A stretch of 64,000 nt of DNA from Luzula sylvatica (Eukaryota > Streptophyta > Magnoliopsida > Poales > Juncaceae), in assembly GCA_946800325.1 (NCBI GenBank), contig OX326959.1:21830242-21894241 (forward strand), written 5' to 3'. Numbering within the stretch: the stretch's first letter is position 1; each line of letters starts with the position of its first letter. Below the pieces are notes generated by a model. The model worked only from the letters and a program-made list of their open reading frames with translations, had not been told where the DNA came from and ran no database searches. Made by a program: the position numbers and the translations under genes. Below, one piece after another: positions 2,693 to 37,512 of the stretch.

Positions 2693-3608
2693 TTTTGTGT
2701 TTTTCTTTTCTTTTTTCAGTTTTTTTCGTAGTAAATTGTTGAATTCGGATTTCAATTTGGGAAAATGCAGAATTAGGGTTACGATTTTTGTCATTATTGC
2801 TGAATTTGAGTTTTAATTGTTGAATTATGATTTTAATTGTTGATTTGGAGTTTGAATTGTTTAATTATGGCTTCAATTGTTTAATTGCTGAATTTGGGTT
2901 TTTTTTCTGTCAATTTGAGTTTACTGGGTCTACCTCCCTCCTCTCTTGTGCTCTCGCGCTGGACCACACTGGCAGCCAAGCCACTTCCTCGCCTCTCCTC
3001 GCCTCGTCTGAGAGGATCCAGTGACCTGTGACCACTTCCTCGCCTCATCTGAGTTTACTGGTATTTTTTTTGTTTGTTTCTCTCAATTCTTGATAAAATT
3101 TAGGGTTTCATTATAGTGTTTTTTAACATGATTTCGACTGTTCAGGGTTTTTTAACTGACATTGTCGATTTTACTGGTTTTTTTTTTAATTTTCGTCACT
3201 GCTTTTTGTTCCTTTTTTACTGTTTTTCTTGCCCCTTTTTTACTGATTTAATATTTTGTAGGTATGTTCAATGCGATGCAAAAGCTAGACTAGACGAAGG
3301 TTCCAGCAATTCCTTTTGAAAAAAGGTTAATATTATTCAAATTTTTATTTATTTATTCATTAATGAAAATAAATTTGTAAATGCAAATTTGATAAGGCTT
3401 AGCAGTTATGGTTTAGGTTTAGTGTTTAGTTTAAATTTGATAAGTAAATTTATTTAAACAAGCTTCAATTATACAATTTAATCCCAATTCATCTTCAATA
3501 TCAAGCTAGCCATCGGTTCAATCGAATCATTGTTCAATTTGCAATTAATTAAAAAAATGGCAGTAAAAAGACAACAAATCACAATTTTTTGCTACTTCTG
3601 TTTTGCAG

Positions 3609-3685: not shown

Positions 3686-4671
3686 GTTCTTAATAATTTT
3701 CTTCATTGATTTTATAGCAAATTTTCAAAAAACAAGGGGTAATTTGGTAAATTGGCAAAACTTTTTGCTTATTATTTTGTTTCACTACACAAAACTGATT
3801 TTTTGTTAAATACTTTTATTAAATATTTTCTGATTTTTTAATGTTTTTTATTGTATTTTTTGATGTTTTTGAAATGGATTTTTTTTGTGTTCATTTTTTT
3901 TTATTTTTTTATTGTTGAAAAGTATTTAATATTTTGGAAATGTTTTTCCTGGTTTTTTCTACTGTTTTTGAAAAGTATTTAATATTTTGGATTTATTCAA
4001 TACTTTCATGAAATATTTATTCAATGTTTCTTTTTGTATTCATTTTTTGTATTCACTGATTTTTTGTTCACTGTTTTTTCAATCTTTACATACTTATTTA
4101 TGTTCACTGTTATATTTTGAATGTTAGTTTTCACTAGTTTTTTTTGTTATAATTTTTTTGTATTTTTTTTTTTATGTTTTTTAAAGTTTTATTTCACTGC
4201 TTTTTTTTTTTTTTTTAATTTGCTTTTTCTTTCTTTTTTTATACTTTTATTATTTTTTATTTTATTATTAAATATATTAATCATTTTGATTTAATATTGT
4301 GTATGTACGTTTCAGCGATAACAAATTTCTTCGTAGGGGTCTGGGGGGTGGGGGTATCAGGGGGGGTTATATTAAATATTCTTTATAGGGTTTTTACTAA
4401 GTTATTATGTTATGTATTTTTGTAGGTACGCGCGTACGATTTTGAATGGTTTTAGTAAGGCGGTGAGGACAATTTTTCAAGGGTTTTTATTAAATATATG
4501 TATTTTTGTATTTGTACGTAATTCGTATCGTCGGAAAATATATGTAATTTGTTATTGATATACTTTTTGCTATTGATGTGTGTTTGTAATTTGTAATTTG
4601 ATTTTGTATTTGTAATTTGTAATTTGTATTATCGAGAAATATATGTTTGTGTATTTTGTATCATGGATTTT

Positions 4672-9491: not shown

Positions 9492-9496
9492 CTAAA

Positions 9497-9966
9497 TGTT
9501 ATAAATAAATACGAATAACAAAGAGAGGAGAAAAAAAATTATATTCAAATGATCAACCATTACAATTGACAATGCCCTCTTTATATAGTACAAGATAGGT
9601 GCATGAATTAAATGGAAGTTACAAATAATCAATACTAAATCCCTATAATTATATCTTTAATATAATTAATTTTAATTGACAATGCCCTCTTTAATTATGC
9701 TTGAATTGCTTCATTTTTATTTTAGTCACTTTGATTGTGAATGGAGAATTGATTACGAAATTTCTCTTAGGAGAAATATCATAAAAATCTGCCTCATTAA
9801 AACCTTACTAGGTAAAATCCAATTGAACAAAAATCCTATTGAAGGAAAAAGAGTGCAACATTATTATGTTTCATATGCTTTATAAGTTGCCTCATTAAAA
9901 ATCTTGTGAGGAAAATCCAGTGGGACAAAATCATGACCAAGGACAAAAAGAGTGCATTGCGTATTA
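9497..9966 (-). repeat. 3' LTR (left), rearranged
   Basis: Bases 9497 to about 9674 align with 18247-18430 of the other LTR. Beyond 9674 the two LTRs differ: the left copy repeats AATTGACAATGCCCTCTTTA and then runs through 'GCCTCATTAAAA...GAGTGCAACA'-type sequence, which I associate with copia LTRs, to a C-rich tract at 9969. The inner boundary is inferred from that tract (polypurine on the minus strand). Confidence 0.55.
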
Positions 9967-9968
9967 TT

Positions 9969-9978
9969 TCTCCCCCTC
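9969..9978 (-). other. Polypurine tract candidate
   Basis: TCTCCCCCTC on the plus strand reads GAGGGGGAGA in the element sense, the usual tract just before a copia 3' LTR. A second similar tract (GGGGGAGATA in sense) lies near 11182-11191, so the exact functional one is uncertain. Confidence 0.5.
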
Positions 9979-11846
9979 ATGGATACAAATATTTTACGAC
10001 AAAAAAAAAATTCAATCTTTTGCATTCGCTGTTTCGAAATCTTAGTAGCCAGCGACGAGCTAACTTCTTCATGAAATATTTATTATATTTGTGATCCATG
10101 AAAAAAAAAATTCACATTCGATATCTTTTATGTCAAATTTCTTCTTTTAGTACTTATCTTTTATAGCTCTTCGGGAGTTCAAATAGTTATAATTAAGGAC
10201 TATTTATCTGTAATAAATACGTATCTCCAAATTTTATCATTTATATCGGTATATATGTTCTTAATTATTACATCGATTATATCTTATGACTCAAATTACT
10301 AATCATGCAAGGATCTTTGTAATTTAATATATGTCTCGAGAGTTTAAATTGTACGCTTCAGACATACTAAATTCTTCGGGGATTTTCATGAATATTGTAG
10401 CAAAATGAGTCATGTGAATAATCTAATATAATGAATAAAAGAAACAATTTTAGTCCTTCAGAGACCTTTAGATAAATTGAAAACATAAATACAATTTGTG
10501 TCACCATGTATGGTGATTTTCGGACTTCAGGTCCATCAATTTTACTTTCTTATGTGATTTTTGTTATTGGCCAATAATGTTTAAATGCCGACATTCCGCA
10601 ATTGATTTAATTTCAGATCCTCGTTTTATTAATTATAAATTGAAAGCGCACTCATGCCAACTTTCTAATGACTATAGTTTCATTTCGGTTCCATCTTTTT
10701 CTAGTAGAGAAATTATTTTGAGATCTCCTTATTTTCAACAATTTTGATGTTGTCAGGTACCTGAACCTTTTACAAAGGTTATATATTTATTTATGTCAAA
10801 TCTACTAATTAATCTTTTATTATCTTGTTAAAAAGGATATATATTATTAGAAGTATTATCAACTTCTTTATCGCCAACTTTTTATCATGCTCTTTCTTAT
10901 TCCTTTGGATTTTTAATATTGGAACCGATTGGTCGACCAAACTTCAGGCTTATATCAAATTTAAAATTAACCAAGGATATTATACTAAAAATATGAGCAT
11001 GCATTTTAGACTGGAAAGCTTTTATTTATTAATCATTCCTGTATTGATAAATGCATCAAATTACCGATTTGCAATTCCATGCAAGTAATTAATTTATGAA
11101 CTCCTAGTTCACTTTTACTTGTTCGAGGATCTGATGTGATGATGCAATCCATATAATTTCTCACTTTTCCAGTTTTCATTATCTCCCCCTAATTTAGGCA
11201 CGAGTTGTTGATATTTAATTAATATGTAATGAAGTTCTTCGGGACTTGCATGATATCTTATATCTTGAAAATGTTCACTCAAGTTTGGTTATTTCATAAT
11301 ATCTTATTTTTATGTAATTTTTCCTTCTGTGATTTAATATTTGCAACATACATATATGGCTTTGTTGCTTTCTTGAATGTAAACTTCTAGTTTACAAATA
11401 CAATTAAAAAATTTCTTTTTCGGAACTTCTAGTTTGCATAAATAAATGTTCAAGATATACAACTTTCAAGAAAAACACTTATTTTTAACTCGTCCATGTG
11501 TTATCACATATCTATTGCACGTTAAAAAAATAATAATTCGGTGAATGTTTTTTTTTCCGTTTACTCACAAGTTAAACTAAAGATCAGGGAGTACATAGGA
11601 TAAATAGTTGGTCTTACACTACAACAGAACTGGATATCAGCAACGGCAAAAACCGTCGCTGAAAGTAAGGAAAACCGTCGCAGAAGCATTTTCCGACGGC
11701 CGCCCGTCGCTAAAAGCCCGTCGGTGAAAGCCTCATCGGTGATGTCACTTTCTCCGACGGCCCGTCGCTGATATGAGCATTTCCGACGGCATATTTTCTC
11801 CGGCGGCCCGTCACAGAAGCCTTCTCCGACGGCGGATTAGTACATT

Positions 11847-12235
11847 TAATATTATAATTAATTAATTAATTAATATTTAATTAATATTAATATTATAATT
11901 AATTAATTCGTATTTAATATTATATTGTAATTAATTCATATTTAATAATATATTTAATATATTAATTAATATTATATTTAATATATTAATTAATATTACA
12001 TTTAATATATTAATTAATATTATATTTAATATTATAATTAATTAATTCATATTTAATATTATAATTAATTAATTAATTCATATTTAATATTACAGTTAAT
12101 TAATTAATATTTAATATTATATTAAATATATTAATTAATATTATATTTAGTATTATAATTAATTAATTCATATTTAATATTATATTTAATTTATTATTTA
12201 TTAATATTAATTATAAATAATATTTAATATTAATT
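11847..12235. repeat. ATTAAT-rich low-complexity tract
   Basis: Nearly 400 bp consist of overlapping TTAATATTAAT/ATTAATTAATTC words with almost no G or C. The tract lies inside the CACTA element, directly after its left subterminal repeats and where the transposase gene fragment ends. Confidence 0.85.
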
Positions 12236-12287
12236 TTTATCAAATAGTTCAAATACAAAAATCGATAACAATTCAAAAATGTGTTTT

Positions 12288-13113
12288 CCTTTCTTACCGC
12301 AACACTTTAATCGAGGAGTTATTGGAAGATACCGCAACACTTTACATGGAATGGGTTTTCCTTTCTTACCTTCTTCCATAGGTAAGAAACGAGATTTATT
12401 ACATTTATCATATTTATTTTTGAGACTGTCATTCCCATAAAAGAGCATGCAGTTATCCGGACATACATCAATTTTTTCGTACTGCATACCCAAACCTTTG
12501 ATGAATTTCTTGGATTCATTGAAAATTTCGGGAAATTTATTTTTCGGAGGGATAATAAAGTTTTTGATTACATACAAGAACATATCGAAAGCATTTTTGT
12601 TACTTCACAATCGGATTTGACATTCAGTAACATGGTAACAACCGACATTAGAGAATGTTCCGAAAGGGCTGGTCCATCCAATAAAGTCTCATCAGAAGCT
12701 CGAAGCATCTCAAAGAAACGAGCAACTTCAGGATTTGGTTCCTCATTCTCTTCTTAATGCCAATCAAACAAAGGACCGGCAACATCACGAATAATTTCTT
12801 CCATCCGATTTGTATTTGGTGACGAGGACCCGCCCAAATTCGAATCATCCTCTCCGTGTTTGGACCAAATTAGATAGTCCGGCACGAAACCGACACTACT
12901 TAAATGAGTTGCTATCACATCATGGGAACGAAAAGAAGTATTTTGACAAGAAATACATGGGCAACAAATACATGTTTTTCCTTCACTATTTATTTGCACA
13001 TTCTCGGGATTTGCGAATGCAAAATTTAGAAAACCGACCATTCCATTCCAAAACTCATTCGTAACGGAACGGTTAACAATACGATTATACATCCATGAAC
13101 GATCGGTCTCCAT
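12288..13113 (-). pseudogene. TNP2-type CACTA transposase, 5' fragment, broken
   Basis: The first 119 codons (13113-12754) form the transposase-associated domain of En/Spm elements: SWMYNR near the start, then a Cys-rich centre (CICCPCISCQN), HDVIATHL and FVPDYLIWSKHGE. A stop follows FDWH. The frame continues as a TNP2-like linker (EARFFEMLRASDETLLDG-type), shifts frame near 12595, and resumes with NAFDMFLYVIKNF, KIDVCPDNCMLFYG and KVLRYLPITPRLK, all typical of TNP2 N-terminal regions. Homology then ends at the AT-rich tract, and the catalytic core is absent. One stop, one frameshift and the 3' loss make it inactive. Confidence 0.88.
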
Positions 13114-14974
13114 AGATAATTATTCTAAGATTGAAAAAATATGTATTAGGAAAGTGTATTTGAGAAAAGAAATTGGAATAAGAACACTACTAAAGATTTC
13201 TCTAAAAAGTATGAAATACTCTTGAGATATTTGGAATAATAATGTTTCGAAGGAATTGTTTGTATTAGAATGATTACTTACAAGTTATACTATAACTACT
13301 AAAGATTTTGTTTGGATGAGTGCAAATGTGTAGTACAAATTATAATATAATATATTCCTAAAAACTTTCATAATTTCTTTTATGTTTTGAATATCCAATA
13401 TTAATTTATAATTTGTTCATACAAAAGTCCCTAAATTATAATTCATAATTTTTTAAAATTATAAATTTTTATAATAATATCATATAAATTAATAAAATTA
13501 GTTAAATATTCTAATATATTTAATAAAATAATATAATTCCATAAAGACATTTAGTTACAATATTTTATAATTAAATACTAATTTCTAATTTTTTAATATA
13601 TAATACGAATATTTTTAATACAATATAATTAAATAGTACAATATATTATATTTTACTGTTCTTTATAAATAAATTTGCTATTGTCAAAAATATAACTAAA
13701 ACTTCATTGTGAACACACCAATGTATAAAAATACACAACGTTATAATCACAACAAATAGTACTACATCCAAACAATTCTTAAATCCTAAACTTAAAACTA
13801 ATATTTCTACTAAAAATACACTATGTTATAATCACAACAAATACTACTACATCCAAACAACTCTTAAATCCTAAATCTAAAACTAATATTTGTACTAAGA
13901 TATAAACTACACATATTTCAAATATATATAATTGATACAAAAAAATTATAAATATCGAAATAATATTAGCCTTGATCCGAAGCTAATTAATTAATTCGCC
14001 ATGCTTCGTCCAGAATTCCACACCAATCCACAAATTAATCCTTGCCTAAATTAACAAGTTTCCTAAAATAATAACAACAAAAATTAAACCACTATATATT
14101 TGCAAAAAAAAGGAATAAAAATACTAATACATTTTCAAAAAAAAAGGGCCAAAAAAACTGTTAATAAACCACAATAATTTGTAAAAGGAAACTAATAAGC
14201 TTATCTTTTTCTGCAAATTTAAAAAAAAAAATTTATCCTGGCAATTCAAATTTAAAACAGATTTAAAAACGACAATTTTTTTTCTTCTGAAAACCAAATA
14301 AGGATTCAATTTCAAAAACAGAAATTGAAAATAATTTATTGCAAACCGAAATTGAAAATATTTTGGAAAAAAGACAATAAAAACAGGAATAAAAAAACCA
14401 AAATTTGAAAATATTGCCAATTCGAATTATTTCAAATATTGGAAATTCATCAATTTTGAAAAAACCAAATAATTTCAAAACCAGGAATAAAATAGAAAAT
14501 ATTGCGAATGCCAATTTTAAACAGAAATTCGAAAAATTATCTGCCAGGAAATTAAATAAAATAGGGATTTTAAACAAGATAAAACAAAAATTATTTCAAT
14601 TTTTTAAAACATTATTTTAAGAAAGAAATGACATAAAACTTCTAAAATGACATAAAACAGGGAATTAAATTTGCCAATTCAAAAAAAAATTCAGCACAAA
14701 AAAGTCATAAAACAGGGATTTTAAAGAAAGCACCAAAAAATTCAGCATTAATAATCGAGATTTGTATGATAATCCTAAAATAATTTGACAAACAAGAGGA
14801 AGTGTACCTCAAAAATAGAGCTCGCACAAATCCGAGCACCAATCTTAGCCTCCGAATCCAAGCACAAAATCCTAAATTCGTAAAATTGAAACGAAAATCA
14901 ATTCATAATAACAAAAATTAAAAACAACAAAAAGAAACCAACTTCATATCTTACCAAATTAGTGGGAGAATGGT

Positions 14975-15260
14975 GTGTACAAATTTGCACCACCAGTTTC
15001 TGGGGAGGGAGAAGGGAGGGGCAGCATTAGTAATGGGAAGGGAGAAAAAGAGGCGTTAGGGAGGGGCTGTAGTGAGGGCGGGGCTGTGGTGAAGGCGGGG
15101 CAGCACGAAGAGAGGATGGTTGTGGTGAAGGCGTTAGGAATGGGGGCTGAGGGAGGAGGGTTGTGGGGAAGAGGGGCTGTGTGGGGACAGCGAGAGGGCT
15201 GTGTGGGGGGAAGAGAGGATGTAAAGGGAGAGAGAAGGGGGCTAGCACGCTTATATAATG
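14975..15260 (-). other. GA-rich tract (CT-rich in sense), possible transposase leader
   Basis: The plus strand is built of GGGAGG, GGGGCTGTG and GGAAGAG words. Read in the minus (transposase) direction it is a CT-rich stretch about 1.9 kb upstream of the TNP2 start and just inside the right subterminal repeats, a plausible promoter or leader position. Frames in it are low complexity and not claimed. Confidence 0.4.
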
Positions 15261-18232
15261 GGGTTAAAGTTTCACCGACGGGCCGTAGAGGGACTTTCTG
15301 CGACGGGTAGAGGCTTCAGCGACGGGCCGTAGCAGGGCTTCACCGACGGGTTTCATACACTGGCGATGGGCCCGGGAATGTGCGATAGGCCGACAGAAAA
15401 GTTCAAAAAATCACCTACGGGCCGTCGGGGAAAATACCGTCGGAAATGGGCTTTTTGCGACGGACTGGGTAATATGGGACGGGCCGTCGGTAGTAGCGTG
15501 GGGCCGTCGGAAAAACATACCGTCGGAAATGATCTTCGGCGTCGGCCCGTCGCAGAAAGTGGCTTAAATTTGTGTTGGCCCGTCGCTGATATTGCAATAT
15601 GTTGTAGTGTTAATCGAATAATGATCGTGACATGCATATTTTATGTCCAAGCAATTAATCCAAATCATATAATTGTTTTTATTTTATACATTGAACTTCT
15701 AGTTCATAATAACTTGATTTCTTTTTATCTAATACAATACAAGTGCATGTCATAAAAATAAACAAATATGTTTCAATTAACATAATGACTCTCTTTTTTT
15801 TTTCTCTTTTTTTGGAGTAAATAGATAATATATCTTCTAGAGCAATAACATAGTGACTCTTCTAGAGTCATCAATCATAAACATACAATCCTGTAATTAA
15901 ATATACATATCTCTTTATTGAAATTTACTAATTTGCGTGCATTGATAAACTGGATTGCAACTACAAGTGCATATATAAAAATAATAATAAATGTGTGAAA
16001 AACAAATGTACGAAAAAAAATACGTGCAACTTCTGGTGCATAATTTAAACAACCAACTTCAGGTGTGTTAGTAAAACTAACATTCAACTTCTAGTTGCGA
16101 ATAAATAATTAAATAAATAATCTATTGTATATGACTTATGGTGCATGAATATAACTGCTGACATATTCATTATTTTTATTTTTATTCATAATATGTAACA
16201 TAACTTAATATTTAAAATACAGTACAACAAAGAAATTATATAGTTAATCATACATCTGGTGCGCAACATGTATTTTATATTTACTAAATATTTAAAACAA
16301 GTAAATATTGATGGAAAATAACCAAGAAATAACTAATATAATTAAAACATGGAAATAACACTTCTGGTGCGTAACAGTTTCATATGATTATCATTCCAAA
16401 ACATAAATACATTCAATCATGATATTCTTATCAATTGCCAAATTATACCACCAGGATATATTGATGGCATTTAATTTAAAAATAGACATTTTTTCTTAAT
16501 TACGATTATTATTTCTAATAACATATATGAATTCATTAGCCTCTCATAATTAATTGGCCGTTACTTGAATATACACATTTTGATGTATATATTTCATTTT
16601 AAGTATACCATTTCTTATTGCCGGTTGTTAGGTATTATATCAAAAATAGAAATCCAGAAATTAAATAATAAATTTATATAACTTCTGGTTATATAATAAT
16701 ACCTTCACGATTTAACTTTATAAAATTTATATAACTTCTGGTTAAATAAAACTAATTTCTAAAATTTGAGATAATAAACTCAAATACATATTTTCTTAAT
16801 TAACATCTAGGAAATGTAAGGATATCAAGTTGCATGAATATTCGTCTGCTGACATGATGAACATTGATGTGCATCTACAAACTTTATTAAGTTGCATGTA
16901 TAAAGTTTATTGGATTCATGAAAAGCCCAACATATTCTAGCATAATGTCGCCATAATTTAGAACTTGATATGCATGTATCAATATTTATCTTCTGGTATA
17001 ATGTATCTTCTCTCAATGAAAACACCAATAATATTTACAATCAAATTAATGATATGATTAAACAGTTCCAAATTAATGACTCTCTGGACAATTCATAGAG
17101 CAATATTATTTGCCCCTTTTTTCATTAGTATCATGATTTTGACACTAACACTATCATGTTTTGACATTAGTATGATGCTTCTGGCATCGATACTCTTTCA
17201 TCTTTAAATAATAATAATCATACGCTTTCAATGAAAATAATATTATGACTATAGATCTTTTAAACACCAATAAGCGTATGTATCAATAAAAATAATCTAG
17301 CAACTTCAAGTGCATAAAAAAAAATGTTGAGAGATTGAATTCTATTTTGTCAAAACAAATATAATTAAAACTCAAAATTCAAATCAAATTAAATGATTTG
17401 AATTCTTGGTCCAATGTACAGGAAAATGTTAAATCAAATATTAAATCCTTAATGATCAATATAATTGTTATCATTGCATGTGGGCCAATTAATTTAGCCG
17501 TTTTCATCCAATTATATCTTTAATTTTCAAAACCACAGCCACATTAATTTCATTTGCGGTTTCTTCATATATTTTATTTTATTATGTTGTAACATTTTTG
17601 TAATAATAATCAAGTCAATTAATGATGAAAACGCACCAGCTACTGACAGCCAACAACTTCTGGTTGTTGTCAAGTATCTGAAAATTTTCTGTTCTTTTTA
17701 TACTTTGTATAACTTGCGGCAACCATGTTATATCTTATAAGTTATGTAATTGTAGAATCGTATCATACCATATTATATAAAACTTCGGGTTTATATAATG
17801 ATTAAAGGATTTTGTATAAAATTTCTGATTTGTACAAATTTTACGATTTAATGATGAACATATTATATTAAAATTCCAAAACTTCTGGTTTTGTGCCAAA
17901 TGCAACCATATCTTTTAACAATTATTGTTGTATTTTAATAATATCATAAATTTAATATTGAAACTTTGCCAAACTTGCAACATGCTAGATTAACATACTA
18001 GAATAGTATAAAATAATGGAGCTCAATATTAAATTCGAAAAAAAAAACAACATCATGAAATAAAAGTAATATTGTTGTAAAATAAAAAAAAAAGTGATTC
18101 AAACTAATACTAACCATTCATACAGTTGATTTCCGATTTAGGAGAATTATATTGGAATGTCGTGTATCTTTAAATCTCGTGTACCTTTAAATCTTTTTTG
18201 TCTTCGATTCGATTTCCAAACAATAGAACAAT

Positions 18233-18246
18233 TCGTGCTGATAACG
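18233..18246 (-). other. Primer-binding site, half-tRNA-Ile type
   Basis: Directly inside the 5' LTR the element-sense sequence is CGTTATCAGCACGA. It does not match TGGTATCAGAGC (3' end of initiator Met). It is the complement of UCGUGCUIAUAACG, the anticodon stem-loop of plant tRNA-Ile(IAU) as I remember it, with C opposite inosine. The primer 3' end would fall about at tRNA position 39-40, as in the half-tRNA priming known for Drosophila copia. The tRNA sequence is from memory. Confidence 0.65.
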
Positions 18247-18470
18247 TGTTATAAATAAATACGAATAACAAGAAAAGACAGGAGAGAAAATTTTCTATTC
18301 AAATGATCATCCATTACAATTGACAATGCCCTCTTTATATAGTACAAGATAGGTGCATGGATTAAATTGGGAGTTACAAATAATCAATACTAAATCTCTA
18401 TAATTACTTCTTTAATATAATTAATTTTAAGTTACAATATGACATTTATATATTTTATATATTCGTAACA
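18247..18470 (-). repeat. 5' LTR (right), 224 bp
   Basis: It begins (plus strand) TGTTATAAATAAATACG and ends ATTCGTAACA, with CTAAA immediately after. It shares AATTGACAATGCCCTCTTTA and TACAAGATAGGTGCATG with the left LTR but lacks the additional roughly 290 bp seen there. Confidence 0.8.
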
Positions 18471-18475
18471 CTAAA

Positions 18476-32318: not shown

Positions 32319-35300
32319 ATGGCCAAGCCAATCATTCTTGCTATGCTTGTGGTTTCTCTCTCCCTCCTAATTTTGGCCCCACTCAACCAAGGTAAAATTA
32401 CAACAGAAGAATCTTAAAAATACAAAATAACTAAATAGACAATAAACTTCATAATCAAAATAAAAAATCTCAATACTTGTGGATAAACATGTTGGATAAT
32501 ATGACTATATTTCTATGGAGAAGAGGAGGAAGAAAAAAAAATTTACTCTTAATACTAGTTATGTTTCTCTTTCTATTTTCTTATCTCTTACAAACAAAAT
32601 GGGTCCCTATATATATGCTAAGTGGTTCATGTATATATGAATCACATTAACTCCTACCCATTAACTCTCACTAATTTCCAAGTACATGATCCATAATTCT
32701 AGGTAATGGATACATGTATTACAACTCCCAATGGTCACATGACCTTTCACACCCATATAATTAATTACCAAAATATCTTAACTAATTAAATTAAGTTTAA
32801 ATATTCAACACTCCCTCTTAAACTTAATTCCTCGATACTCCAAGCATCATCCGTAGTTCCGTAAAAACATCGTGCTTGAGTGCCTTCGTGAAGATATCCG
32901 CAACTTGATCTTGAGTCTTCACGTATTTCACTTTGACTTCATCATTTGCAACACAATCTCGAATGAAATGATACCTCGTATCAATGTGCTTGCTTCGATC
33001 ATGAAACACGGGATTCTTCGCAAGTGCAATAGCTGACATGTTGTCAACATAGATCTCCGTCGCTTCGTCTTGCCTTATCTTCAATTCTTTCAACAAATCC
33101 TTGAGCCATATAGCATGACACACACATGATGCGGCAGCTACGTACTCAGCTTCACACGTCGAAAGTGTCACGATTGGTTGTTTCTTCGACCTCCATGTGA
33201 ACGCCGTTTCTCCCAAAAAGAAGACAAAACCGGTTGTGCTTTTTCGATCATCCGTATCTCCTGCCCAATCACTGTCGCTATATCCTACAAGGTTGAACTT
33301 ATTCGAAGAGGAATAGTGTAACCCGTAGTCACTCGTACCCTTGATATACCGAAAAATTCGCTTCACCGCCTAGAAATGTGTCTCGGTCGGTTTCTCCATG
33401 AATCGGCTCACGAGACCGACTCCAAAAAGAATATCCGGTCTAGTACAAGTTAAATACCTCAAACTACCTACGGCGCTTTTGTAGGTAGATGGATCTACAA
33501 GGTTTCCTTCTTCGTTCTTTGACAATTTTAATCCGGTTTCGACCGGAGTTGCCACCGATTGGCAATTGTCCATCTTAAACTTCTTGAGAATCTCTTTCGC
33601 AAAACCTTCTTGGGAAATGAAGATTCCTTCTTCGGTTTGTTTGACTTCTATGCCGAGATAGTACGACATGAGACCGATGTCGGTCATCTCAAATTCTCTA
33701 GCCATTGCTCCCTTAAATTCTTCGAACATTTGTTGATTGTTTCCTGTGAATATCAAATCATCAACATAAAGACAAACAATCAAAATATCTCCATCTTTGT
33801 TTGTCTTCACATAGAGAGCATGCTCATGTGGGCATTTTTCAAACCCATTCTTCAAGAAGTATTTGTCGATTCGAATATTCCAAGCTCGAGGTGCTTGCTT
33901 CAAGCCGTACAATGCTTTCTTCAATCTCAACACCTTGTCTTCATGACCTTTGATCACGTATCCACGAGGTTGTTCGATGAACACCTCTTCCTCAATAGTC
34001 CCATTCAAGAAAGCCGACTTGACATCAAGTTGATGAATCCTCCACTTGTTTTGTGCCGCTAACGCAATGATCATTCGAATCGTCTCGAGTCGAACAACAG
34101 GGGCAAACACTTCGTCATAGTCTATCCCGACGCGTTGACTATATCCTTTAGCCACCAATCGAGCCTTGTATCGTTCGACCTCGCCTTTTGCGTTCTTCTT
34201 TTCTTTGAAGACCCATTTCACTCCGATAGGTCTCTTACCTTGGGGTATCGTGGCCAACTCCCAGGTTTTATTCTTCTCGATGGACTTCATTTCTTTGTCC
34301 ATGGCTTTCCTCCATCTTTCGTCTTTGACGGCTTCTTCGAAAGATATGACATCAACACCTGCGAAATGACAATAAAGATCCATGTCATCATTCAGGTTAC
34401 GCGTCACGTCATAAAGCTCTTGGATCGTTCTCGTCTTTCGTGGCACTTCGCTCGAACCACCGCTCGAACTACCGCTCGAAGAAGATGACGATGCGATACT
34501 TGAATCCGTCGGTGAATGAGGAGGTGTGACCGGTTCTTGAGGAATTGCATCTCTTTCCTCATTATCGCCTTCGAATGGTAGAAAGTTAAACCTTTCCTTG
34601 TCCTCATTACTCCAACTCCATTCATCTTCTTCATCGAACTCCACGTCTCGACTAACGATCACTTTACCATTACTCGGGTTGTAGAGCTTGTACCCTTTCG
34701 ATCTTTGAGAGTATCCGACGAAAATGTGCTTCTTGCTCTTATCGTCGAGTTTCGATCGTTCTTGATCCGGCACATGGACATATCCGATGCTCCCAAACAC
34801 TCTCAGATGCGACACACTTGGTTTTCGTCCACTCCATGCTTCTTGAGGAGTTTGGTCGATCAAACTCTTTGTCACACATCGATTCGATAGGTAAACCGCA
34901 CACGTAACTGCTTCTGCCCAAAACTCTTTAGGCAAGTTTTTCGTCTTCAACATGCTTCTCACCATATTGAGAATACTTCGGTTTTTCCTCTCAACAACGC
35001 CATTTTGTTGAGGAGACCTTGGAACGGTCAAGAATCGCCTGATGCCTTGTCCTTCGCAAAACTTGTTAAACTCGTTGGAGATAAACTCGCCACCATTATC
35101 AGTCCTCAAGGACTTAATATAGCATCCACTTTCATTCTCTACAAGGGCCTTGAAGTTTTTGAAACAACCGAACGATTCCGACTTCTCTTTCAAAAAATAG
35201 ACCCAAGTCTTTCTACTAAAATCATCGATGAAGAGTAGAAAATATCGATTTTTACCGAATGAAGATGGCTTGATCGGTCCGCACACGTCTGCATGAATCA

Positions 35301-37512
35301 GTTCAAGTGGCTTGCGTGCTCTTGAAGTGCCTTCTTTTGGAAAACTCTTGCGAGATTGCTTGCCCATGAGACACCCTTCGCAAACTTGATTCGGTTCTTC
35401 GATAGATGGCAATCCTTTTAGCATCCCCTTTTGTGCCATCGTCTTCAAGCCTCCGAAATTTTCATGACCAAGTCGTAAATGCCAAATCCACGAAGTTTCT
35501 TTCACACATGCCTTGAGACACTTCGCAACATCGGTTTGGATCTCGAGGTAGAACATTCGGTTCTTGGTCATAGGTACCTTCGCAATTACCTTTCCTCGAT
35601 CATCTTGAAGGATGAGAGCTCGATTCTTCATGTGAACTTCATAGTTCTTCTCGAGGAGTTGTCCCAAACTCAAGATATTGGTCTTCATGTTTGGAATGTA
35701 GTACACGTTACTCATGTACTCGTGACTATCATTCTTCGTACGGATCAATATCGTCCCTTTTCCTTTGATTTGCACCTTGGAGTGATCTCCGAAAGTAACA
35801 TGACCCATTACCGATTTATCAAGCTCGACGAATTTGCTCTTGTCTCCACACATATGATTACTCGCTCCATTGTCAAGACACCATAGATCGTTCTTTCCAC
35901 CTTCATCGCTTGCTAGCAATAAAGTCGCGTCGACTTTTTCATCCTCGGCGTAATTGGCCTTTTCTTCGTCACCGTCATTCGATTTACTCCAACAATCTCG
36001 AGCATAATGTCCGGGCTTGTGACAATTATAGCACTCGAAATTTTGTTTCGGGTAGCCTCCTCTACCGCGACCTCGAAAGGATTTACCTTCTTTATTGGAC
36101 GTCGGCTTTTGCTCGTCCCTTCCATACCCTCGGCCGCGACCTCCGCGTCCTCGTCCTCGTCCTATGCCACGTTGGCTTGTTTCGCGAGCTCCATCTTTCT
36201 CCTTTAAAGAGAGCTTTGCGGCGAAGACTTGTTCGGCCGGTTCTTCCTTCTTCTTGTTCATGCGTTCTTCATGGGCTTGCAACGAACCCATAAGCTCATC
36301 AATGGTCATAGTGTCCACATCTTTGGACTCCTCAATAGCTACTACGATGTGCTCGAACTTCACATGCAATGAGCGTAGCACCTTTTCTACGACCCGAACA
36401 TCCGCCAAAGTTTCTCCATATCGCTTCATTTGATTGGTTGTCGCCAATAATCTCGAAAAGAAATCCGCAATAGATTCGGAATCTTTCATTCGCAATCCTT
36501 CGAATTCACCTCTTAACATTTGAAGACGCACCTTCTTCACTTTATTAGCTCCTTGGTTGGAGTTTCGTAGGATCTCCCATGCTTCTTTAGCATTCGTCGC
36601 ATTAGCTACTATTTCGAACATCGATTCATCCAAACATTGATGAATGAGAGTTAGTGCTTGTCGATCCTTCTTTCGACTCTTATGCAACGTGTCCTTTTGG
36701 GCAGCGCTTAACCCAACCTCGGTTTCCGCCTCGGTGTAGCCATTATCGACGATATCCCAACATTCGTGACAACCAAGCAAAGCTTTCAAACGAATACACC
36801 AATTCTCGTAATTTTCTTTCGTAAGACGCGGAAATTGGAACGGAAAGCTCGAATTCGCCATTACAATATTACTCTCGCTCTGATACCAATTTGTTGGATA
36901 ATATGGCTATATTTCTATGGAGAAGAGGAGGAAGAAAAAAAGATTTACTCTTAATACTAGTTATGTTTCTCTTTCTATTTTCTTATCTCTTACAAACAAA
37001 ATGGGTCCCTATATATAGGCTAAGTGGTTCATGTATATATGAATCACATTAACTCCTACCCATTAACTCTCACTAATTCCCAAGTACATGATCCATAATT
37101 CTAGGTAATGGATACATGTATTACAACTCCCAATGGTCACATGACCTTTCACACCCGTATAATTAATTACCAAAATATCTTAACTAATTAAATTAAGTTT
37201 AAATATTCAACAAAACAAACCGCATGTACGAGTACGACCGTTACATTAGAAACCTAATTTATACTTTTTCATGCAGGGTCATCGTTGGAGAATACTTCTG
37301 AGAGTGCTCCGGCCACGTATATTCCAACGGGTCTCCATTCCGACTACGACAAAGCGGTATGCCTACACGAGTGCAATTGCTGCCGTCCAGATGGAACTGG
37401 TTGCCAGAAAATGGATTGTTGCGGCGTAGTTATCTGCCCTCCCGATAAGCCATTCGGCCAATGCGGCTTCAAATTGTTGTCGTGCACTTGCGATAAGTGC
37501 ACTCATGCGTGA
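32319..37512 (+). CDS. Small secreted cysteine-rich protein (two exons), DUF7866-like, intron invaded
   Basis: Exon 1 is 32319-32391 (donor CAAG|GTAAAA) and exon 2 is 37277-37512 (acceptor ATGCAG|GG), in the same phase as the paralogue at 21921, giving 102 residues. Residues 2-24 form a signal peptide core ([18 protein letters not shown]). The mature protein has C-x3-C-x-CC-x6-C-x4-CC-x4-C-x7-C-x6-C-x-C-x2-C and the block [11 protein letters not shown]. The cysteine pattern and KPFGxC block are shared with the first gene. The 4.9-kb intron is a 157-bp intron plus a complete antisense copia element and its 5-bp duplication. Both splice sites and the frame are intact, so a functional transcript is possible if the long intron is spliced. 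Role unknown; secretion inferred. Confidence 0.82.
32490..32810 (-). repeat. 3' LTR of copia element
   Basis: 321 bp, TGTTGG...CAACA. It differs from the other LTR by five substitutions (four transitions and one T/G), with no indels. The polypurine tract TTTAAGAGGGAG (sense; plus 32811-32822) lies immediately next to it. Confidence 0.97.
32811..32822 (-). other. Polypurine tract
   Basis: Plus CTCCCTCTTAAA reads TTTAAGAGGGAG in sense and abuts the 3' LTR, the normal plus-strand priming site. Confidence 0.85.
32824..36861 (-). pseudogene. Copia gag-pol polyprotein, one nonsense codon
   Basis: Frame 36861-33370 (1163 residues) and, after a TAG at 33372-33370, 180 more in the same frame. Order: gag ([12 protein letters not shown] near residue 10), CCHC knuckle [14 protein letters not shown] (277-290), protease DNGAS (about 330), integrase zinc site H461/H465/C494/C497 and catalytic D525, D588, E624, RT with LYVDD (1031-1035), then RNase H ([27 protein letters not shown]) after the stop. 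Integrase before RT defines Ty1/copia. The stop lies in a THF-x-AVKRI context where Gln or Lys is usual, so it looks like one recent substitution (CAG to TAG). The protein would lack RNase H unless the stop is read through. Many plus-strand frames over this region are shadows. Confidence 0.96.
36877..36888 (-). other. Primer-binding site (initiator-Met tRNA)
   Basis: The sense sequence TGGTATCAGAGC is complementary to the 3' end of plant initiator-Met tRNA, three bases after the 5' LTR and 15 bases before the gag ATG. Confidence 0.95.
36892..37212 (-). repeat. 5' LTR of copia element
   Basis: 321 bp, followed by the AAACA duplication. Near-identical to 32490-32810. Confidence 0.97.

Follow-up and report, generated by a model that had tools for sequence, protein, structure and literature searches.

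The element and its hairpins

The window analysed here, 64,000 nucleotides of Luzula sylvatica (assembly GCA_946800325.1, contig OX326959.1, positions 21,830,242 to 21,894,241 of the forward strand), holds an eroded long terminal repeat (LTR) retrotransposon whose interior carries many small hairpins with differing stems around one loop motif. Read in the sense of the element the motif is C[YNGNA]G, and in about one third of cases a single unpaired nucleotide follows just 3' of the closing G. The element and its parts, and the sixteen motif hairpins of this copy, lie as follows (coordinates of the window):

9497..18470, minus strand: LTR element lacking long reading frames, probably derived from Copia to judge by its relatives, about 5.0 kb when the nested insertion is left out
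18247..18470, minus strand: 5' LTR in element sense, from LTR comparison and the ends as read
18232..18246, minus strand: position of the primer-binding site, CGTTATCAGCACGAA in sense
9497..9683, minus strand: 3' LTR in element sense; its inner end has been lost or replaced and carries a 20-nt copy of LTR-internal sequence
11617..15609, no strand given: nested CACTA transposon, target-site duplication TTA at 11614-11616 and 15610-15612, outside the hairpin array
10522..10534, minus strand: motif hairpin, direct, 4 bp
11097..11111, minus strand: motif hairpin, direct, 5 bp
11232..11247, minus strand: motif hairpin with unpaired base (T in the plus strand), 5 bp
11378..11396, minus strand: motif hairpin, direct, 7 bp
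15692..15706, minus strand: motif hairpin, direct, 5 bp
15854..15870, minus strand: motif hairpin, direct, 6 bp
15956..15971, minus strand: motif hairpin with unpaired base, 5 bp
16025..16040, minus strand: motif hairpin with unpaired base, 5 bp
16085..16097, minus strand: motif hairpin, direct, 4 bp
16674..16696, minus strand: motif hairpin, direct, 9 bp
16732..16744, minus strand: motif hairpin, direct, 4 bp
17174..17188, minus strand: motif hairpin, direct, 5 bp
17300..17313, minus strand: motif hairpin with unpaired base, 4 bp
17651..17669, minus strand: motif hairpin, direct, 7 bp
17772..17799, minus strand: motif hairpin with unpaired base, 11 bp
17877..17893, minus strand: motif hairpin, direct, 6 bp

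An initial annotation of this DNA had reported more than fifteen sites of the form arm-loop-inverse arm, and the evidence for them proved stronger than first stated. When loops TTCNR with arms of at least 4 Watson-Crick pairs are counted in the element, LTRs and CACTA excluded, 13 of 66 sites on the plus strand have such arms, whereas 500 dinucleotide shuffles average 0.43 and never exceed 4; the minus strand yields 0 of 30, and the remaining 55 kb of the window 4 of 470. This is the descriptor search that the annotation had suggested, and its outcome lies well clear of the shuffled level. Among all 1024 possible loop words, TTCTG and TTCTA rank as the top two in the arm count.

A test that is independent of the arms leads to the same picture: we took every word CTNCNRG, the motif as it appears on the plus strand, and scored it as a hairpin if at least 3 further pairs follow the closing pair. 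Of the 24 words in the element, twelve pair directly and four more do if a single base 5' of the C is left unpaired; one word, at 16990, pairs only if the unpaired base is placed 3'. Shuffling the partners gives means of 1.84, 0.92 and 0.61 for these three classes, and the largest sum of the first two in 10,000 shuffles was 10, against 16 observed. With the arm slid by 2-5 bases just 0-2 words still pair, and elsewhere in the window hairpins are formed by 0 of 33 words on the plus strand and 2 of 26 on the minus strand.

The individual hairpins named in the annotation at 10522, 11378, 15854, 16674, 17174, 17651, 17772 and 17877 are all present as claimed. A stem at 17811 exists as well but is a poorer case, with a T-A closing pair, one bulge and one wobble, and the plain hairpin AACCTTT/AAAGGTT starts at 10764, not at 10756. 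Treating 10165..17893 as one hairpin array, on the other hand, does not hold, because 11617-15609 is the nested CACTA insertion, in which just 1 of 42 TTCNR sites has an arm of at least 4 pairs; about 4.57 kb of interior remain once it is excluded.

Architecture of the window copy

The element ends as read are flanked by a 5-bp target-site duplication, CTAAA, at 9492-9496 and 18471-18475, and its two LTRs are alike in 174 of 192 columns. At the inner end of the left LTR, positions 9674-9693 repeat exactly 20 nt of LTR-internal sequence (9564-9583), as if by template switch. The minus strand is taken as the sense of the element because that is where the primer-site word borders the LTR, both in this copy and in the relatives, and because the pol pieces of the relatives share the strand. 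This word, CGTTATCAGCACGA, is common to the window copy, the 12 LTR-bounded relatives described below and a Copia element on the contig L051; it looks unlike the usual initiator-Met primer site, and it has no match in the viral contig collection. The CACTA insertion encodes a Transpos_assoc domain (PF13963) in a frame at 12754-13113 on the minus strand; it is En/Spm-like, with short G+C-rich subterminal repeats.

The hairpins in related copies

With window positions 16600-18000 as the query, at least 53 matches were found in the same 445-Mb genome. Twenty stretches around matches were fetched, and the 12 with their own LTR pair (about 230-257 nt) were retained; all counts for relatives use these 12 unless stated otherwise. 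Their LTR pairs are 88.8-99.2% alike, the lowest value being that of L050, so that the sample is not uniformly young, and a 5-bp target-site duplication is readable in 7 of them; the boundaries are a few bases off at the beginning of L040 and at the ends of some other copies. L038, with a 178-nt repeat pair and unsure bounds, was kept out of the motif, identity and shared/private counts, but it enters the checks of primer-site word, site positions, tblastn matches and open stretches as well as the 28 relatives with which the window copy was compared; L031, L034, L035, L041, L042, L047 and L048 likewise stand outside the 12-copy counts and were used in the LTR check and the 28-relative comparison, with the reading frames of three of them also inspected.

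Each LTR-bounded relative has 34-46 CTNCNRG words and 22-38 hairpins. Altogether hairpins are formed by 366 of the 477 words that lie antisense to the element, as opposed to 0 of 32 on the other strand, and in the flanking DNA only 1 of 26 and 1 of 22 words are. The excess over chance recurs in each of eight copies tested singly, the window copy included. The sites are scattered across the whole interior, and none lies in the LTRs of L045. Compared with most relatives, the window copy has suffered more erosion: the hairpin GTATGC-TTCAG-GCATAC of L045, for example, reads GTACGC-TTCAG-ACATAC at 10357.

The motif was split on words with TTC fixed, which gave 389 sites with a C-G closing pair in the 12 relatives. 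Direct stems are formed at 188 of them; at 108 the stem leaves a single base unpaired on the 5' side of the closing C (plus-strand coordinates), and 93 lack 3 further pairs. The unpaired base is A in 89 and T in 19 cases, and no site has it on the other side only; a single word of the window copy, with its bulge on the other side, is the lone exception. The bulged A that had been noticed in two stems is part of the motif. Sorted by closing pair, hairpins among TTC loops make up 296 of 389 sites with C-G, 14 of 118 with T-A, 2 of 30 with A-T and 0 of 9 with G-C, i.e. 16 of 157 for all pairs other than C-G.

The loop had been described as TTCTG, TTCTA, TTCGG or TTCAG; this core is right, but the loop is wider and follows Y-N-G-N-A in element sense with C-G closing. 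In that sense the stemmed fractions are 129/157 for CAGAA, 64/80 for CTGAA, 47/56 for CCGAA, 30/41 for TAGAA and 18/36 for TTGAA, followed by CTGTA (16/24), CAGTA (14/14), CTGGA (13/13) and rarer words. Some stemmed words lie outside YNGNA (AAATT 10/14, GTGAA 8/12, TACTA 8/9, AATAA 7/10) and may be single conserved sites. The stems themselves are free: every one of the four pair types occurs at positions 2-4, and L045 has 24 different 4-nt arms in its 31 hairpins. Searches of Rfam came up empty, both for the window (gathering scores) and for L045, L032 and L044 (E<=1), and we found no description of this hairpin motif in the literature searched, which leaves out most subscription papers.

Conservation of pairing

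For identity, 11 copies were aligned pairwise to L045, excluding the window copy. Stems are identical at 0.972 of positions, the closing C at 0.974, the closing G at 0.965 and the unpaired base at 1.0 (10 sites), compared with 0.919 in the flanks; within the loop, A5 reaches 0.994, G3 0.943 and Y 0.904, and the two N positions 0.87 and 0.835. Whole hairpin intervals have an identity of 0.952, about 2.5 standard deviations above random intervals (0.929).

Changes were also sorted over 164 pairs of 31 hairpins in the 12 copies of this one genome (window copy excluded) and evaluated against 500 matched control sets. Changes shared among copies arose in replicating lineages, whereas private ones mostly postdate insertion. 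Only one single change that breaks a pair is common to two or more copies, where the controls have a mean of 12.6 and a minimum of 5, a twelve-fold depletion; private pair-breaking changes, in contrast, number 26 against 30.1 in controls. Shared single changes that leave a G-U pair are likewise few (4 against 12.2 in controls if the sense strand folds, 3 against 9.9 if the antisense strand does). Because shared breaks are depleted and private ones are not, pairing appears to be guarded while the family multiplies and to decay freely after insertion; recombination between copies could be another source of shared changes. The proposal of a selected structure in the initial annotation thus finds support in unrelated but complementary arms, restriction to one strand, a one-sided unpaired base in the 12 relatives and the depletion of shared breaks.

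Coding content and Copia origin

The interior had been called coding-free, which agrees with the searches of the window copy: with CACTA removed its longest open stretch is 71 aa in sense and 91 aa in antisense, Pfam finds nothing at E<=1 in six sense-strand frames (three per interior half, stops as X), and a tblastn search with the polyprotein of the L051 Copia element gives no match at E<=1. By eye we take these frames to contain Copia-like stretches. Across 14 copies the longest open stretch is 91-150 aa on either strand. The relatives, however, do carry decayed pieces of Copia pol: with the L051 frame as query, reverse transcriptase (RT) pieces are matched around element positions 1170-850 (best E 1.6e-6) and RNase H pieces around 800-690 (best E 3e-4), while the match to an integrase-end piece around 3300 is weak (E 0.37). 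No tblastn match at E<=1 falls upstream of this last piece, in the part where gag through integrase should lie and which holds many hairpins. Given the RT and RNase H pieces, it is likely, as far as sequence comparison can tell, that the family descends from a coding Copia element.

Translated in sense, the L045 motif hairpin at element position 2038 gives Met-Pro-Glu-Ala-Tyr and the one at 2056 gives Lys-Ile-Pro-Glu-Gly-Phe. To the eye the second peptide is similar to part of the L051 frame, although no tblastn match covers the site. Some hairpins may therefore predate the loss of coding.

L051 itself is a 6.4-kb contig filed as a cyanobacterial metagenome-assembled genome (uncultured Trichormus), but it is a plant-type Copia element and probably host contamination. 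Its open frame of 1306 aa has Copia gag and RT domains above the Pfam cut-offs and a zinc-knuckle match (PF14787) just below (26.5 against 27 bits); the end of the frame is out of frame with an RNase H stretch elsewhere on the contig. No relatives of the frame were confirmed in the viral contig collection.

A stretch of about 126 nt is repeated in L045 (locus positions 3055-3180 and 4334-4460, about 1.3 kb apart, 80% alike). The repeat pair occurs in at least 9 of the 12 relatives, with a spacing of 2.3 kb in L050; by eye it is the region after pol, and pol-like stretches precede each copy. Elsewhere in the window, at 32490-37191, lies an unrelated Copia element with 300-bp LTRs that are 98% alike and minus-strand frames of 1163 and 180 aa.

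What the hairpins may be for

Stems that are free in sequence, together with a constant closing pair, constant loop letters and an unpaired base on one side, suggest sites for an RNA-binding protein. We tentatively favour the explanation that the window element is an eroded member of a family derived from Copia whose hairpin RNA is predicted to bind Gag, probably in trans, for packaging, while conceding that the chances run slightly against it. The element RNA would fold into hairpins at the motif sites; the stem sequence would be free provided that the arms pair, and pairing would be kept as long as the family replicates; the invariant G at the loop centre could present an exposed guanosine to a CCHC zinc knuckle; and many weak hairpins would jointly bring about the selective packaging of an RNA that encodes no large protein. 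Gag would be supplied in trans, likely by an autonomous relative. We prefer Gag because the loop G is invariant and several precedents agree with such a role: in retroviruses, zinc knuckles bind guanosines exposed in hairpin loops (PMC7599994), the Gag-less BARE2 is packaged in BARE1 particles (PMC3735527), and RNA viruses are said to use dispersed packaging signals with many sites and one motif (PMC6281560). The more specific history, in which a Copia element lost its genes and its whole interior became an array of about 30 C[YNGNA]G hairpins hijacking the Gag of another element, is only a little less probable.

Several observations weigh against this explanation. Taken singly, the hairpins exceed shuffles in stability only mildly (mean z -0.94 in sense, -0.79 in antisense), and the identity of whole intervals (0.952) stays below the highest of 2000 random intervals (0.956), which means that the conservation signal lies mostly in the pattern inside the motif. 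The initial annotation had called the hairpins covarying, and this is true between sites within one element but not between orthologous copies, where re-pairing does not exceed controls and stems are conserved rather than re-paired, an outcome that the annotation had listed as counting against its proposal. Among the 12 copies there are no compensatory shared double changes that keep pairing (control mean 0.76). Between the window copy and 28 relatives there are 4 re-paired doubles (control 5.4) and 21 unpaired ones (control mean 7.3), although unchanged cells (816 of 936) exceed the control level (about 610 of 798); a further ortholog comparison that includes the window copy gives 2 doubles of each kind, with no compensatory excess. 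Re-paired cases are isolated: ATCC/GGAT to ATTC/GAAT in L049, and T-A to C-G at 17778/17793 in L011. Support for the sense strand as the one that folds is thin: five distinct internal mismatches would be G-U wobbles in sense and one in antisense, while orthologous single changes in the relatives do not discriminate (28 antisense, 24 sense). Finally, none of the 8 CTTCNRG words in the Copia element of L051 (6 on one strand, 2 on the other) forms a hairpin; should Gag be the binder, the hairpin lineage must have evolved a preference of its own, or else the binder is a host protein.

The latter is the main rival, which we regard as unlikely though deserving serious attention: the hairpins would be RNA sites for a host protein or machinery acting in export, stability, translation shut-off or granule targeting. 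It draws on the same structural evidence as binding by Gag, and the L051 element, with the same primer-site word and no motif, shows no visible need of its Gag for such sites. Localisation and stability signals, on the other hand, usually need fewer than about 30 dispersed sites, and no Rfam family matches the window at gathering scores or three of the relatives at E<=1. A structure that works in single-stranded complementary DNA, in pausing, strand transfer or integration, seems improbable to us: palindromes fold in either strand and the predicted stability of both is similar, but the distinct internal mismatches favour G-U in sense, and the sites spread over the interior, with none in the LTRs of L045.

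Still less probable is a mutational process that writes palindromes without selection, such as the repair or template switch at a fixed word that had been offered as an option in the initial annotation. Arms that vary between sites around a fixed loop, and the lack of an excess of orthologous re-pairing, would be in keeping with it. It fits the data worse than selection, since it fails on the one-sided unpaired base (108 against 0 in relatives), on the C-G closing, on a loop in which positions 3 and 5 are held and the other three vary at least as much as the flanks, and on the contrast between depleted shared and undepleted private breaks. That the words are remnants of coding (Pro-Glu codons) or binding sites for a protein on DNA, with incidental palindromes, is hardly credible: the peptide readings of the two L045 sites speak for remnants, but no open stretch exceeds 150 aa in 14 copies, and a DNA site would have fixed arms, whereas the 31 hairpins of L045 show 24 distinct ones.

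Comparison with known systems and significance

The family resembles large retrotransposon derivatives (LARDs) such as Sukkula of barley in its LTRs, its long protein-free interior and the assumed trans-complementation. It has the LTR pair and short target-site duplication of a LARD and a long interior without coding, and the conserved RNA structure expected of a LARD takes the form of local hairpins predicted from sequence. It differs in its repeated, precisely defined local motif and in relatives that point to descent from Copia pol. Psi hairpins of retroviruses are clustered in the leader, unlike the roughly 30 spread here across the interior. The exposed loop guanosines that zinc knuckles take up in Psi (PMC7599994) have a counterpart here in the loop G, for which the same role is predicted. 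BARE2, a parasitic Copia element of barley, cannot make its own Gag and is packaged by an autonomous relative, as is predicted here; it differs in that the start codon of gag is deleted, while its signals for dimerization and packaging are described as conserved, and the accessible part of the account mentions no hairpin array (PMC3735527). Dispersed packaging signals as in MS2, other viruses and the hepatitis B virus pregenome are similar in that, at the level of sequence, our family also has many stem-loops with a common loop and bulge motif and free stems. The signal of MS2 is an (x)xYA loop with an A in a 5' bulge (PMC6281560); here the loop is YNGNA, the unpaired base lies 3' of the closing G in sense, the carrier is an LTR retrotransposon and binding is predicted.

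The loop, closing pair, unpaired base and stem of the motif can each be altered separately in binding tests. If a host protein binds, the motif would be a recognition motif without an Rfam match here; if Gag binds, it would be a direct packaging code. In the latter case, a dispersed packaging-signal system in an LTR retrotransposon would explain why LARD-like elements keep kilobases of non-coding interior.

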